IMG/VR virus record: IMGVR_UViG_3300030104_007485
Location: 1 to 26,542 of that record
Direction: 5' to 3' (one strand)
Origin: a virus
DNA length: 26,542 nucleotides
Shown here: piece after piece, positions 4,123 through 13,044 of the stretch
How the letters are laid out: every line of letters begins with the position of its first letter
Position numbering within the stretch: position 1 is the stretch's first letter
Notes under the pieces: generated by a model
Database searches by the model: none
What the model was told of the DNA's origin: nothing
The model's input: the letters and a program-made list of their open reading frames with translations, nothing else
Program-made: the position numbers and the translations under genes

Positions 4123-4135
4123 TACCACTGTGGTA
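4123..4135. promoter_or_regulatory. Palindrome TACCACTGTGGTA, candidate operator (copy 1)
   Basis: A perfect 6-bp inverted repeat with a single central base lies in the leader of the RHH-like gene, 63 nt before its ATG. A half-site TACCAC occurs at 4090-4095. The identical 13-mer occurs at 17152-17164, also 63 nt before a leftward gene. The operator role is inferred from symmetry and position. Confidence 0.5.
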
Positions 4136-4274
4136 AGGCAGTTGGGAAAAGGTCCTGGTCGGGAAAACGGTCCTCGGCATTAGGGGAGGTACGACTAACG
4201 AATGGCATACCCTCCCCCCCTCCACTATCAACCTCCGGTTCCGGAATTATACGTAGTGCAACGACAAACGGCGG

Positions 4275-4440
4275 GTGGCGGATCGGATCTTCCGGCAGAG
4301 ACAAAGTTGATCCACTCCCAGCGGCGGGGTGGCGGATTGATCGTTGTTCCGGTATCGAGGCGTGGCAGGTTCAGCCTTGTGGCGGATTCAGCGCGTGGCG
4401 GTTTCATCGTTCCGGCATATCGATTGCTGTGGCGGATTGA
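4275..4440 (+). repeat. Iteron-like array of GTGGCGGATT repeats
   Basis: Six copies of GTGGCRGRTTSA-like sequence begin at 4275, 4329, 4362, 4379, 4395 and 4429. A second motif, TTCCGG, sits at 4290, 4347 and 4410 between some of them. Taken together the motifs from 4329 on follow one another at 18, 15, 17, 16, 15 and 19 bp, close to one and a half helical turns. There is no convincing coding frame here. Arrays of this kind usually bind a replication initiator, regulator or packaging protein; which one cannot be told from sequence. Confidence 0.6.
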
Positions 4441-5306: not shown

Positions 5307-6068
5307 ATGAAAGGTAAACAAAAACTCACAGCTAACCAAGAACGCATCCAAACCTTGATTGCGTTTATCAAAGCTCGTCTACTCGTCTTCTTGGAAGAGC
5401 CGGGCCGTCTCTGGGCCGACACACCAACCAACCGCGAATGCGTTCGCCGTAAGGTAAAGGGGTGCGCCATCCAGTTCGGTCCGCGTCTCAACCAAACCGC
5501 TGAATCCGATGTCATTTACAAGTTCGAACTTGGCATGCTGATGTATGTTCCTCGCGCCGACATGGACCTGAACATCGACCTCGACGACTTCTTCTCAACA
5601 GGAGAGCAATACACCGGAGAGACACATCTCCACCTTTTCGTACCTTGGTCGACTTGGATGATGGTGGTGAAGCGAGTCGTCATGGGCATCGCGGACAGAG
5701 ATGGCAACAAACTCAGTGAGACCAACCATCTCCGGCAACTCGCCAGCCTCGCTCGAGTCTTGCGCCACATCGAGACCATCTCTTGTTGGCAGAACGAAGG
5801 AGTCAACACCCAAACGGGTGAAGCCTTCCTCTACAAGTGGCCCGCCGAGGTGGCTCACTTCCCCAACGCCTACCACAGGTTCGAACTGAACGAGAGGGCA
5901 TACGATGGTGATTGGTACAACGCGTTCGGTACCGGATACGTTGCCAACCCCGACAAAGCTGAACCCACCAACTTCGACGACCCGGTTCACCCCGATGACG
6001 CGAAGCGTGAGGTTGCCAAGGAGTTGCGTCGTCAGCGCACCCAAGACTTCTTCAACCAAGAACTGTAA
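5307..6068 (+). CDS. Phage protein of unknown function, first gene of the rightward block
   Basis: A 253-residue soluble protein starting MKGKQKLTANQERIQTL, with AAAGGAAG ahead of ATG 5307. The frame stays open for 69 codons upstream to a GTG at 5100, but that stretch overlaps strong inverted repeats and lacks the codon pattern of the gene. I recognise no family. Visible features are an Asp-rich segment around ADMDLNIDLDDFF, an aromatic core with THLHLFVPWSTWMM, and an acidic/basic C-terminal helix with DDAKREVAKELRRQRTQ. A strong intrinsic terminator follows at 6088-6120, so it is probably transcribed as a single gene under the control signals at 5077-5277. A regulatory or early takeover role is possible but unsupported. 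Confidence 0.85.
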   Translation: MKGKQKLTANQERIQTLIAFIKARLLVFLEEPGRLWADTPTNRECVRRKVKGCAIQFGPRLNQTAESDVIYKFELGMLMYVPRADMDLNIDLDDFFSTGEQYTGETHLHLFVPWSTWMMVVKRVVMGIADRDGNKLSETNHLRQLASLARVLRHIETISCWQNEGVNTQTGEAFLYKWPAEVAHFPNAYHRFELNERAYDGDWYNAFGTGYVANPDKAEPTNFDDPVHPDDAKREVAKELRRQRTQDFFNQEL

Positions 6069-6087
6069 GTTCGACTTACGCCTTCTG

Positions 6088-6120
6088 CCTCGGGTCGCTT
6101 CGGCGATCCGGGGCTTTTTT
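6088..6120 (+). terminator. Intrinsic terminator after the 5307 gene
   Basis: CCTCGGGTCGC and GCGATCCGGGG pair over 11 positions (two G-T wobbles) around a TTCG tetraloop, followed by CTTTTTT. This is a textbook rightward terminator 19 nt after the stop codon. Confidence 0.9.
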
Positions 6121-6149
6121 CCGGTCGCCCGTGCAAAGGAGTCATTGCC

Positions 6150-6401
6150 ATGACCTTCTATTCCATTGATACATTATTCGTCATGGTCACAACAATCGTC
6201 TCACCGCACGCAACACAGGTGGCTTCCACAAACTCACCGGCAATCCGAACGCGCGCACCTTGGAACTCACTGGTACTCCCAACACTCCAACCCCGATCCT
6301 CGGTGACGGGGCGAACGGGGGCACAGCACTGGACTTACCATTCAGAGTACTGGGCATTTTTCATTTTTACTTTTTCTCTTTTATCTTTTTCTAAGGTGTA
6401 A
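6150..6401 (+). CDS. Small gene, probably frameshifted or misread
   Basis: ATG 6150 has a good AAAGGAG ribosome site and opens an 83-codon frame. After about 12 codons, however, the protein turns into Ser/Thr/Pro-rich sequence typical of an out-of-frame reading. The overlapping frame one base back (open from 6170, stop TAA 6392-6394) shows the C-ending codons of the neighbouring genes and reads HGHNNRLTARNTGGFHKLTG, then a TPNTPTPILGDGANGG stretch, ending in a Phe-rich tail. That frame has no ATG of its own because TGA at 6167-6169 blocks it. The likely explanations are a one-base indel, a programmed shift near 6180, or a decayed gene. No family recognised. Confidence 0.35.
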   Translation: MTFYSIDTLFVMVTTIVSPHATQVASTNSPAIRTRAPWNSLVLPTLQPRSSVTGRTGAQHWTYHSEYWAFFIFTFSLLSFSKV

Positions 6402-6678
6402 CCCAGTAACCCAAACGTTACCCAAAGTGGGTTACACCATACGGTAGGTTGTTACTTACATATAAAGAAGTGTAACCACTGTAACCACATATTCGAATAC
6501 ATAGAAAATAAGCTGGCTCGCTCTTCGCACTATGTATTAAACAGAGTATTAAGCCAATCCGCGAGCCTCGTGAGAGCACCCAGCTACCCTATAAAATATT
6601 GGGTAACAGGGTTACATCTCCATACTCGGCGTTCAAACTACCTTCTCGCGTTACCACCTACATGTTGGTGGTTACACC
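6396..6678. promoter_or_regulatory. GTAACC repeat region, candidate replication origin or control region
   Basis: The 315 bp before ATG 6717 lack a gene. About eleven GTAACC/GGTTAC-type motifs lie in both orientations between 6399 and 6674. GGTGTAACCC (6396-6405) and GGGTTACACC (6429-6438) form a perfect 10-bp inverted repeat. Around an AT-rich core, AGCTGG (6511-6516) pairs with CCAGCT (6580-6585) and GGCTCGC (6515-6521) with GCGAGCC (6561-6567). TACCC/GGGTA and ACCACC/GGTGGT pairs follow. Many short repeats plus an AT-rich stem-loop are typical of initiator-binding origins or repressor regions; the choice is inference. Confidence 0.5.
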
Positions 6679-6716
6679 ATCACCACACGCTACCCGTAGT
6701 GTCCGGAGAAATCATC

Positions 6717-7229
6717 ATGACAAAAGCAAACATCGAACGCTACATCAGAATGATTCGTCAACTCCTTCACTTGGAGCCATGCACTGATGAGGAGATGACC
6801 ACGCACGTCAACCAGATCAAATGGAATCTTGACACCAAGTGGTACTACCATGACCTGACACTCAGATACTTTGATGGTCCGTGGGTTCGAGACCTCGATC
6901 TTGTCAGGCTGCACAAAGACTTGCGTGACAATATCAAACACAACGGACTCAGCGCAGTAAAAAAGATGGTAGACATCTTTCAAACCAACAGCAAATGTGG
7001 ACCAGTACATGCTGCGTTCGAAATGTTCGTGTGGGTCGACAAATGGACGTTGATCCACAATCAAACACGAGCAACCTTCGACCCGAGTGACTGCCCAACA
7101 GTTCGCGCAGGAAAAGGACATCACTACTGCACTTGCGAGCTTGAACAAAGAACGTTCATGTCACTCAAGCCATCGTTAGATGACCACCCAAATCCAGAGG
7201 ACATCAAACGGTTCTCAACATATTCATGA
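6717..7229 (+). CDS. Phage protein of unknown function
   Basis: A 170-residue protein. ATG 6717 is chosen because CGGAGAA precedes it; an upstream extension would run through the repeat region. It starts MTKANIERYIRMIRQLL, has a helical charged centre (LVRLHKDLRDNIKHNGLSA), and shows a His/Cys group near the end (GKGHHYCTCELEQ) that could bind a metal. No known family is recognised. It is the gene directly after the GTAACC repeat region and directly before the long structured non-coding segment, so it could belong to that module, for instance by binding the repeats or the RNA; there is no direct evidence. Confidence 0.8.
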   Translation: MTKANIERYIRMIRQLLHLEPCTDEEMTTHVNQIKWNLDTKWYYHDLTLRYFDGPWVRDLDLVRLHKDLRDNIKHNGLSAVKKMVDIFQTNSKCGPVHAAFEMFVWVDKWTLIHNQTRATFDPSDCPTVRAGKGHHYCTCELEQRTFMSLKPSLDDHPNPEDIKRFSTYS

Positions 7230-7567
7230 AAGACTTGATGGTCTAAGAATGTGTCGTGCTTCAAAGCATCAAAGCGACACACGTTGTATGTCCAACTGCA
7301 ACCATCAAGCCGGATTGCTGTGTCCGACCCAACGTTCAACACAGCCAGACAACGTCATCTAACCGGCATCCCCGTGACGTTGCAGAAACTATAGGGGGTG
7401 CCGCCATCTTAAATTATAAACATTTACATGGGTTCGAAGCATAAAAGTAATGCGCCTGCAGGTAGCCAACGCTTGAGGATGACCACCTCCGTAACTACTC
7501 AGCACCAGCCAGACTCGTCATCTGTATTGCTGGTCCGTCACACTGGGGAAGATTAACCCCCCCAGGC

Positions 7568-7631
7568 AGGGTCGTCGGTAAGCCGACAACAGGAAGAACG
7601 TCTGTAAGGTGGGGCAGTACCACCCGATCCC
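7568..7631 (+). ncRNA. Minimal cloverleaf resembling tRNA-Phe(GAA), not a normal tRNA
   Basis: Four stems fit a 64-nt cloverleaf: acceptor 7568-7574/7625-7631 (six of seven pairs, one wobble), D-like hairpin 7575-7578/7583-7586, anticodon-like arm 7589-7593/7601-7605 with a 7-nt loop whose centre is GAA, and a T-like arm 7608-7612/7620-7624 with a 7-nt loop. It lacks U33, the TTC of the T loop, the two bases between acceptor and D stem, and a normal variable loop. It is better read as a four-way junction or tRNA mimic inside the large RNA than as a decoding tRNA. Confidence 0.35.
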
Positions 7632-7899
7632 AACATTTTGAGGCAGTCAACCGACGTGGAGTTCGAACCTCCAACCCCTAATAGGGGTACGCTATGGGCC
7701 GTATCAATTGACAGCGGGAAACCAAGTAGAATCACCCTGATGATTCGAACGAAAGTACTGGAAGAAGGAGGTTAGGGCCTCCTTCTCCTCACATCTTTTA
7801 GCCGCTGAACTCAGGCAGCGGGATACAAAAAACGAGGCGTCTGAACGCACGCCTACAACCCTTCGGGGAGAGCTTGAGTGGGCACGTAGTTCACACTAC

Positions 7900-8049
7900 G
7901 GGTACGATGCAAACTTAGTAAATGCACGTAATAGTTTCGGTGCTTTGTGGATGCATACACAAAAAAACAACAAGGATTGTACACCCTTGTCAGAGGCGAT
8001 GTTCGTGGCCCATGTGGCGTTGGGGGTGCAAATCCCTCCGTACCCAGCA
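7900..8049 (+). ncRNA. tRNA-like ends enclosing a multi-hairpin insert
   Basis: GGGTACG (7900-7906) and CGTACCC (8039-8045) form a perfect 7-bp acceptor-like stem. Directly before the 3' strand is a T-arm-like hairpin, GGGGG-TGCAAAT-CCCTC (8022-8038), with a loop one base from the TTCAAAT consensus, and AGCA follows the acceptor stem. The 5' side has a TGCA/TGCA D-like hairpin (7908-7911/7923-7926). Instead of an anticodon arm there are two hairpins, 7944-7949/7958-7963 and 7970-7975/7985-7990. It is too short for a normal tmRNA. The next gene's ribosome site starts 5 nt after it. Confidence 0.4.
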
Positions 8050-8066
8050 TTTTAAAGGAGATCGAT

Positions 8067-8285
8067 ATGGACTGGCTCGAAAGAATGCGCGCAGAAAGTG
8101 ACGCACTCATGCAGCACCAAGCCGATCAGACATGGATCGAACGCGAACATACAGACTTTCTCGCATCGAGAGGTAGCAGTCCCACGGAGCAGCAAACCAC
8201 CCGTACCGTGGACGGGGAACTTACTTTGGTCGGGCGTCCGGACAACGTAAAGACAAACACAGGGCGCACCCTCACAACGGAATAA
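8067..8285 (+). CDS. Small charged protein of unknown function
   Basis: A 72-residue protein from ATG 8067 with an ideal AAAGGAG ribosome site. It starts MDWLERMRAESDALMQHQ, a predicted amphipathic helix, and ends in a Thr/Gly-rich tail (VKTNTGRTLTTE). A longer in-frame reading from 7947 would run through the tRNA-like structure and is rejected. It is the first of a chain of small genes and is followed by the GTG of the next after 2 nt. No family recognised. Confidence 0.75.
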   Translation: MDWLERMRAESDALMQHQADQTWIEREHTDFLASRGSSPTEQQTTRTVDGELTLVGRPDNVKTNTGRTLTTE

Positions 8286-8287
8286 TC

Positions 8288-8566
8288 GTGGACCCTATTG
8301 ACATGCCCGAAGGGCTCGAGTACTGGACGGCTGATGAGGTAGCAGAATGCCTCAGTGGAATCGGACCAGACCTCTACAGAAAACTCTGGCAGATTCTGTC
8401 AGACGCCAGCAACCCAACCCCACTCGGCGGTGACGGATCAGACGGTACGGTGGAAACTCCGGACGAGCGCCTTGACCTGGACAACGACGACAAAGCTCCG
8501 CACTGGTGGAGCAAGCTTACCCCTACAGACCAGCAGACCATCGCGACTGCATACATCAACCGATAA
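8288..8566 (+). CDS. Small acidic protein of unknown function
   Basis: A 92-residue protein, starting at GTG 8288 or at ATG 8303 (MPEGLEYWTADEV). The GTG start gives a 2-nt gap to the previous stop; CGGA upstream is a modest ribosome site. It is Asp-rich in the middle (DERLDLDNDDKAP) and contains TADEVAECLSGIGPDLYRKL, helical and somewhat like a helix-turn-helix or SAM-type segment but not assignable. A protein of this size between two others in a chain spaced by 2 and 13 nt is very likely expressed. No known family. Confidence 0.75.
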   Translation: MDPIDMPEGLEYWTADEVAECLSGIGPDLYRKLWQILSDASNPTPLGGDGSDGTVETPDERLDLDNDDKAPHWWSKLTPTDQQTIATAYINR

Positions 8567-8579
8567 GGAGACTACACCC

Positions 8580-9077
8580 ATGGGAACATCTACACCAAAC
8601 GGAATCGTAATTGCTCATGATGACCACGACCTTCAATCAGAGCACCTGACATACATTGACACCGTACTGTCGGACTGGGACGGTTCGTTCATAATCAAAT
8701 GTTTGAAGCTACCCGACGAACTGCCAAGCATCCCGTCCGCACTATACGGTCCCGAGGCAGGTGATGACCCAATCACCAACGACCAAGTCTTCTACCTCGT
8801 ACGTAACAACCGACGTGGACCTTCCCGCCTAATCAATGCGCCGATGCGCCCAGCACGAAACTTGGTTGTGATTGGTATGCAGGTAGAGGATGGCACGATG
8901 CTCCTCTTCACCGCCTACGGTACCCAAGCTTCTATGGCATCCCCCAAAGAATGGTGGGACTACCCCCCTCCCGACCTCACCGGTATGTGCCCGCGCGAGC
9001 TTTCCGTATGGTGCCAGCGCACGTCCGAAAGCGCTGACTTCTGGTCGCTCCATGCTCTCGCAACTGGCGGTGAGTGA
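8580..9077 (+). CDS. Phage protein of unknown function
   Basis: A 165-residue protein from ATG 8580, with AAGGAG in the leader. It begins MGTSTPNGIVIAHDDHDLQS and contains IDTVLSDWDGSFIIKCLKLP, VRNNRRGPSRLINAPMRP and MLLFTAYGTQASMASPKEWW. The last phrase, ending in WWDYPP, is reminiscent of small globular phage proteins and of formyl-transfer or ART-like folds, but I cannot assign a family. The stop TGA overlaps the next ATG (TGATG) at a GGCGGTGAGTGATG junction, one of a set of similar coupling sites in this block. Confidence 0.8.
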   Translation: MGTSTPNGIVIAHDDHDLQSEHLTYIDTVLSDWDGSFIIKCLKLPDELPSIPSALYGPEAGDDPITNDQVFYLVRNNRRGPSRLINAPMRPARNLVVIGMQVEDGTMLLFTAYGTQASMASPKEWWDYPPPDLTGMCPRELSVWCQRTSESADFWSLHALATGGE

Positions 9078-11714: not shown

Positions 11715-11956
11715 CCCGAGACAGTGAAGAATGGGAACGCGCATGGACAATCGTTCACAGCACCCCATTCAAACCCAAACCACCCGGACCCGTAGATAGC
11801 CACGAATACTGGCAGTACATGGGAACGCAACGTGAAAACGATGGACCATGGATACACCATTTTCGCCATCGCTACCACCCCGCCACAGGTCAATGTGAAC
11901 GACTGCGCATTCCGTGCAGAGACGACACATCGCTTAAACTAATGGACTGGCAATGA
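11693..11956 (+). CDS. Small protein of unknown function
   Basis: An 87-residue protein that overlaps the end of the previous gene. ATG 11693 (MANFKC) is used here; ATG 11711 (MTRDSEEWERAW) forms an ATGA overlap typical of this block and may be the true start, giving 81 residues. It is rich in His, Trp and Arg (GPWIHHFRHRYHPATGQCER). Its stop overlaps the ATG of the DUF932 gene (ATGA). No family recognised. Confidence 0.7.
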   Translation: MANFKCMTRDSEEWERAWTIVHSTPFKPKPPGPVDSHEYWQYMGTQRENDGPWIHHFRHRYHPATGQCERLRIPCRDDTSLKLMDWQ

Positions 11957-12940: not shown

Positions 12941-13024
12941 GCCTGAGTGGTGGAATGGGTAGACACAGGAGACTTAAAATCTCCCGGCAATCATGCCATG
13001 CGGGTTCGACTCCCGCCTCAGGCA
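12941..13024 (+). tRNA. tRNA-Leu (TAA)
   Basis: An 84-nt class II tRNA with all arms intact: acceptor GCCTGAG/CTCAGGC (12941-12947/13017-13023), anticodon arm GGAGA-CTTAAAA-TCTCC with anticodon TAA at 12975-12977, a long variable arm (GGCA-ATCA-TGCC) and a canonical T arm GCGGG-TTCGACT-CCCGC. Position 13024 is the discriminator A. The genome continues CCC rather than CCA, so CCA must be added after processing. It reads UUA codons. Confidence 0.97.
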
Positions 13025-13044
13025 CCCACCACCCTGGAGTTACC

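Follow-up and report, generated by a model that had tools for sequence, protein, structure and literature searches.

A previously uncatalogued folded RNA, conserved among uncultured phages, heads an 820-nt non-coding stretch of a viral contig

The 26.5-kb window analysed here (the whole 26,542-nt stretch, an IMG/VR viral contig) encodes an SSB, a DUF927 protein and a DNA polymerase I-like gene that is distant kin of phage polymerases and for which every relative at 80-90% protein identity is an uncultured viral contig. The analysis concerns the roughly 820 nt in which an earlier note, made from the letters alone, had seen no credible gene between 7229 and 8067, a dense tiling of helices, and a candidate giant phage RNA (either a diverged member of the GOLLD and ROOL classes or a new class). 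The question is thus what occupies this stretch, and whether it is one object. The absence of genes was borne out by ORF listing and by Pfam and PHROG searches: 7229-8067 holds no ORF of note (the longest, of 85 aa, lies on the minus strand), none of its ORFs gave anything above cut-off in either collection, and a 112-aa plus-strand ORF at 7947 amounts to the downstream gene (8067) read from an upstream GTG. As for the object, we conclude that 7230-7411 is a previously uncatalogued folded RNA and that the flagged 820 nt are not one RNA.

Taken as a whole, the 822 nt are more stably folded than 20 dinucleotide shuffles (z -3.7 on the plus and -4.2 on the minus strand), and the dense folding described earlier holds to the extent that both folding and the number of hairpins exceed chance. 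The excess is, at the same time, common to both strands and not plus-specific, is matched by a second part of the contig (about 4550-5300) that is equally hairpin-rich, and is uneven along 7230-8066: 7229-7410 reaches a z of about -3 and 7641-7910 is structured again, 7401-7560 lies at or above the shuffled mean (7401-7550, z +1.6; 7461-7610, z +0.4), and 7881-8090 folds at chance level in 150-nt windows.

The conserved element at 7230-7411 (plus strand) combines a three-way junction with two H-type pseudoknots and has homologues in four other IMG/VR phages, each with a single copy at 95% to about 80% DNA identity (covariance model R1, 112-223 bits, E 1e-26 to 1e-55). One of them, G001 (a 53-kb contig), was reached by a protein search with the 311-aa product encoded at 11953, and G002 (73 kb), G003 (23 kb) and G004 (33 kb) came from exact-pattern and protein-alignment searches; a relaxed search with the 5' pattern returned zero additional contigs with the element, and the pattern GTTGTATGTCCAACTG, run against 84,980 bacterial and archaeal genomes, gave five matches in unrelated hosts, approximately the chance expectation. 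The match begins at the identical base in all phages, and its 3' end is formed by GGGGGUGCC plus a few bases in the window, G001, G002 and G004; in G003 BLAST similarity ends past the three-way junction, and the first pseudoknot is common in structure, not in sequence. G001 has the sequence of window positions 7230-7410 and nothing of the remaining flagged stretch. Indels of 1, 2, 7 and about 37 nt separate the copies of the element, the three shortest falling in loops, and one phage has lost an arm; because of these indels and this loss, no reading frame is common to the phages. Neither outcome that the earlier note had named as speaking against an RNA occurred in the 5' part, where no frame is conserved and covariation is present.

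The three-way junction (7234-7309, plus strand) is closed by P1 exactly where it had been proposed (7234-7242/7301-7309), and it is kept in five phages. P1 (9 bp) encloses P2 (7250-7256/7275-7281, 7 bp) and P3 (7283-7286/7293-7296, 4 bp, loop UAUGUC), and 100% of the cells are paired in an alignment of 4 phages. One compensatory change, G-C to A-U, is found in P1 of G003, and in G001 the P2 arm has been deleted cleanly as a unit, most P1 pairs being kept there next to one mismatch and a bulge. Since the junction hardly varies, its helices rest on invariance and on one compensatory pair.

The two pseudoknots (7311-7402) are absent from the earlier note, and the first of them is the best-supported feature of the region. 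In this first pseudoknot (PKa, 7311-7345, plus strand) S1 joins 7311-7314 to 7323-7326 (4 bp) and S2 joins 7317-7322 to 7340-7345 (6 bp). A hand alignment of the five phages by structural segments, which was made along the structure and leans towards it (the letters were verified against the source sequences), has compensatory changes in 9 of the 10 pairs, S1 occurring as CGGA/UCCG, CAGG/CCUG and AGGC/GCCU. Permutations of the strands pair equally well in 4 of 120 cases for S1 and in 2 of 120 for S2, and a PKa-like pseudoknot appears at the same place in 32 of 20000 shuffled G003 tails. The second pseudoknot (PKb, 7350-7402, plus strand) consists of S1 (7350-7358/7374-7382) and S2 (7365-7373/7394-7402), of 9 bp each; all S2 pairs are intact in the window, G001, G002 and G004, with two wobble changes, S1 in G004 has two broken pairs next to one compensatory change, and in G003 PKb was not confidently recognised. 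When four phages are aligned automatically, 95% of the cells pair, versus 30-46% with slid partners, and the structure-level counts from this alignment are higher than in 498 of 500 shuffles and than in all slid controls. Across the five sequences that make up the structural comparison, covariation supports the structure of the element, from which, together with its position, a function may be proposed.

A scan of Rfam found no family matching 7230-7411, the element belongs to no family of Rfam 15, and the cmscan that the earlier note had proposed returned no match to GOLLD, ROOL or tmRNA. At E <= 10 the contig has no match to the GOLLD model RF02032, nor to the ROOL model RF03087 (for which the control genomes were also without a match), and the layout of the region excludes both classes as well. 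GOLLD has a conserved 3' region, forms an RNA often longer than 800 nt and often lies near tRNA genes (PMC12286853). The RNA described here resembles GOLLD and ROOL in being phage-encoded and non-coding, with several helices and pseudoknots; it differs from these 500-800-nt RNAs in that conservation is confined to the 5' 180 nt, the 3' part being without relatives, and in that no tRNA island is present, the nearest tRNA being at 12941, 4.9 kb away. Of the two possibilities put forward earlier, membership of GOLLD or ROOL has thus fallen away, and the homologues and the covariation argue for a new structured phage RNA class in the 5' 180 nt. The tRNA just mentioned is a tRNA-Leu (TAA) gene (12941-13026) that ARAGORN did not find in the fetched loci of the relatives; in G002, ARAGORN lists a tRNA (L027 14173-14267) with anticodon TTA, which reads the stop codon TAA and is a possible suppressor tRNA.

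Other RNA types with comparable parts were considered and rejected. The RNA antitoxins of type III toxin-antitoxin systems (ToxI, reviewed in PMC5086642, with a phage mimic in PMC3475682) are similar in being pseudoknotted RNAs upstream of a protein gene, and in being phage-borne too; the region has no tandem pseudoknot units (its one repeat is of 14 nt, in two copies), PKa and PKb are unlike one another, and the proteins encoded downstream of the element or near it match no toxin family. The chain of pseudoknots recalls tmRNA, and a T-arm look-alike at 7657-7673 (TGGAG-TTCGAAC-CTCCA) recalls tRNA; ARAGORN and the Rfam tRNA and tmRNA models gave no match here, and the two tRNA-like parts announced in the earlier note were not recovered. 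Hammerhead, HDV-like and other self-cleaving ribozymes had no Rfam match, and the helix nested in the HDV fold is presumably missing from PKb.

H-type pseudoknots ahead of start codons are found in the SAM-II and preQ1 riboswitches and in the autoregulatory pseudoknot of T4 gene 32. The element is similar to such pseudoknotted 5' leaders in having an H-type pseudoknot shortly upstream of a start codon, and differs from them in combining two pseudoknots with a three-way junction, in its sequence, and in leaving the Shine-Dalgarno outside. We consider, with about even confidence, that the RNA at 7230-7411 acts in cis as a leader (intercistronic) RNA of an early phage operon and represents a new family. 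In its favour, five phages have one copy of the element each at the same place, and the compensatory changes looked for in a leader RNA are present in PKa and in the shuffle and slide counts, for few sequences. In 5 of 5 phages a conserved, repeat-rich non-coding region (6069-6716 in the window, plus strand) with GTAACC/GGTTAC repeats precedes the element, and the 3' half of this region is 68-72% identical in each of the four relatives; 7 of the contig's 14 GTAACC sites fall within 6398-6675, a motif scan found a single palindrome, CRCTACCCGTAGTGTC, at about 6689-6704, and the 650-nt region looks like a replication origin or an early control region. A further non-coding stretch of the contig, 4130-4440, is conserved at 71-73% in the relatives over its first 240 nt and has GTGGCGGATT units at 4275, 4329, 4379, 4395 and 4429, in and after these 240 nt.

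In G001, G002 and G004 the element is followed by the Shine-Dalgarno and ATG of a related 220-aa gene, so that it holds a fixed place ahead of a start codon (about 25-45 nt past PKb) in these three phages; other sequence intervenes in the window and in G003. In G003 this consists of about 150 nt of unrelated non-coding DNA followed by another gene, and in the window the next gene (8067-8285, plus strand, Shine-Dalgarno AAGGAG at 8055-8060) has homologues in G001 and G002, placed after the operon of the element. On the upstream side, an accessory ORF stands between palindrome and element in the window and in G004; that of the window (6717-7229, plus strand) has a stop codon that abuts the element, and it is missing at this place in G001 and G002. 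Relatives were sought through this gene and through the one at 8288, and none was found for 6717. The latter gene (8288-8566) encodes a 92-aa protein that recurs, among unrelated neighbouring genes, in at least 24 further viral contigs and, judging by that distribution, is a mobile accessory gene; none of the 24 contigs has the element or its 3' part. As the neighbouring genes differ between phages, the element is a stable unit at a place where genes are exchanged.

Judging from position and structure, transcription would proceed from the control region at 6069-6716, and the transcript would fold into the three-way junction and then two H-type pseudoknots in series, the end of PKb in the relatives coming to lie just beyond the usual footprint of an initiating ribosome. 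Such a rigid pseudoknotted block would most likely act in cis, stabilising and protecting the early mRNA or segmenting it, and tuning its translation, and a phage or host protein perhaps reads the invariant loops of the junction. The Shine-Dalgarno lies outside every helix, and therefore no simple on/off switch is visible. Against a leader stands the different downstream gene in the window and in G003, which weakens a gene-specific cis role.

The main rival is that the 180 nt form a small RNA acting in trans (for host take-over, as an anti-defence decoy or as a protein-binding RNA) that happens to be coded for where the early operon starts. This we regard as unlikely. The sequence of the element is kept while genes on both sides come and go (control region and element are separated by a gene in the window and in G004, and the 220-aa gene is missing from the window and from G003), and the invariant loops suggest a binding partner; its constant place before a start codon in three phages speaks for the leader, however, and neither a plus-strand terminator of its own right after PKb nor a separate promoter was found. 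The control region, in turn, permits the reading that the element is part of a replication origin, as RNA primer or processed origin transcript beside the repeats at 6069-6716. It always follows the conserved GTAACC repeats, and SSB and DNA polymerase genes are on the same contig, but an ORF separates repeats and element in the window and in G004, and we hold this origin reading to be very unlikely.

The remaining 7412-8060 occupies the place that the 220-aa gene has in G001, G002 and G004. Its first section (7412-7570, plus strand) is unstructured and contains a 42-codon ORF (7428-7556) that has no clear Shine-Dalgarno and no family match. An array of local hairpins follows (7574-8046, assigned to neither strand; 7574-7587, 7608-7624, 7657-7673, 7674-7688, 7729-7746, 7763-7786, 7802-7821, 7835-7854, 7885-7900, 7944-7963 and 7970-7990), the chain continuing as far as the Shine-Dalgarno ahead of gene 8067. 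In 7411-8060 there are 11 perfect local hairpins with stems of at least 5, versus 3.6 +/- 1.7 in shuffles, none of 300 shuffles being as high. The UUCG hairpin noticed earlier at 7859-7868 is present, with a stem of only 3 bp. No relative of 7412-8060 was found among phages, among plasmids (distant blastn) or among the fetched IMG/VR relatives; the proposed check for homologues and covariation thus gave compensatory changes for the 5' part and, for the 3' part, no homologue to compare; among the five phages compared, the array is seen in this one only. A remnant of the 220-aa gene was rejected (tblastn and Smith-Waterman scores at chance), as was 3' sequence common to the window and G003 (at chance). 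Likewise rejected was an interrupted tRNA or tRNA array, suggested by 7899-7905/8039-8045, which pair perfectly as a 7-bp acceptor: 650 nt are expected to contain about a dozen 7-bp matches of this kind, and ARAGORN with introns and lowered thresholds gave noise only.

A single ornate RNA of 820 nt, as the earlier note had it, finds no support: the four relatives have the 5' element but lack the other 640 nt, which match nothing. A modular version, in which 7230-8050 as a whole is one giant phage RNA that works in the manner of GOLLD or ROOL, its 5' domain being conserved and its 3' hairpin domain evolving fast, can point to the z of the whole region, to the hairpin excess of the 3' part and to the additional non-coding DNA after the element in G003. 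It has against it that a gene takes the place of the 3' part in three of the relatives, that 7401-7560 is unstructured, that the minus strand folds equally strongly, and that no GOLLD, ROOL or other Rfam model matches; we judge it quite unlikely. The more specific form, in which each lineage gives a conserved 180-nt head its own structured tail (640 nt of tandem hairpins in this phage) and the whole acts on the host in trans, appears distinctly improbable.

The strand bias of the 3' part (z -3.9 on the minus versus -2.2 on the plus strand) favours another reading, that the array at 7574-8046 represents minus-strand small RNAs or inverted repeats acting at the DNA level, and not plus-strand RNA. 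The minus strand has two terminator-like sites, a hairpin with seven T at 7968-7992 and a second at 7835-7854 with six T (in 6000-8700 such sites number 7, versus 2.6 expected). The conserved palindrome core TACCCGTAGTGT recurs as an inverted 12-nt copy at 7904-7893 on the minus strand, about 40 nt ahead of a terminator-like site; this copy may be there by chance, a 12-nt match somewhere in the contig being expected, and no sigma-70-like promoter was found on that strand. This reading, which we find possible though doubtful, concerns the 3' part only and is therefore compatible with the leader explanation of the 5' part. Our best explanation of 7412-8060 is a lineage-specific hairpin array, that is, an unrelated accessory stretch which in this phage would have replaced the gene that normally follows the element.

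The flagged 820 nt accordingly need to be split before any claim of a giant RNA is made. Between the window and G002 the element is 95% identical in DNA, the DNA polymerase gene 75%, and the product of the gene upstream of the control region 20% in protein. So high an identity would also result if phages had recently exchanged the element; within an early region that changes fast, an element kept more strictly than the phage's own polymerase gene probably has a role that the phage cannot lose. Absent from Rfam, defined at 180 nt and provided with a testable structure, it offers an object for the study of early gene control in uncultured phages.
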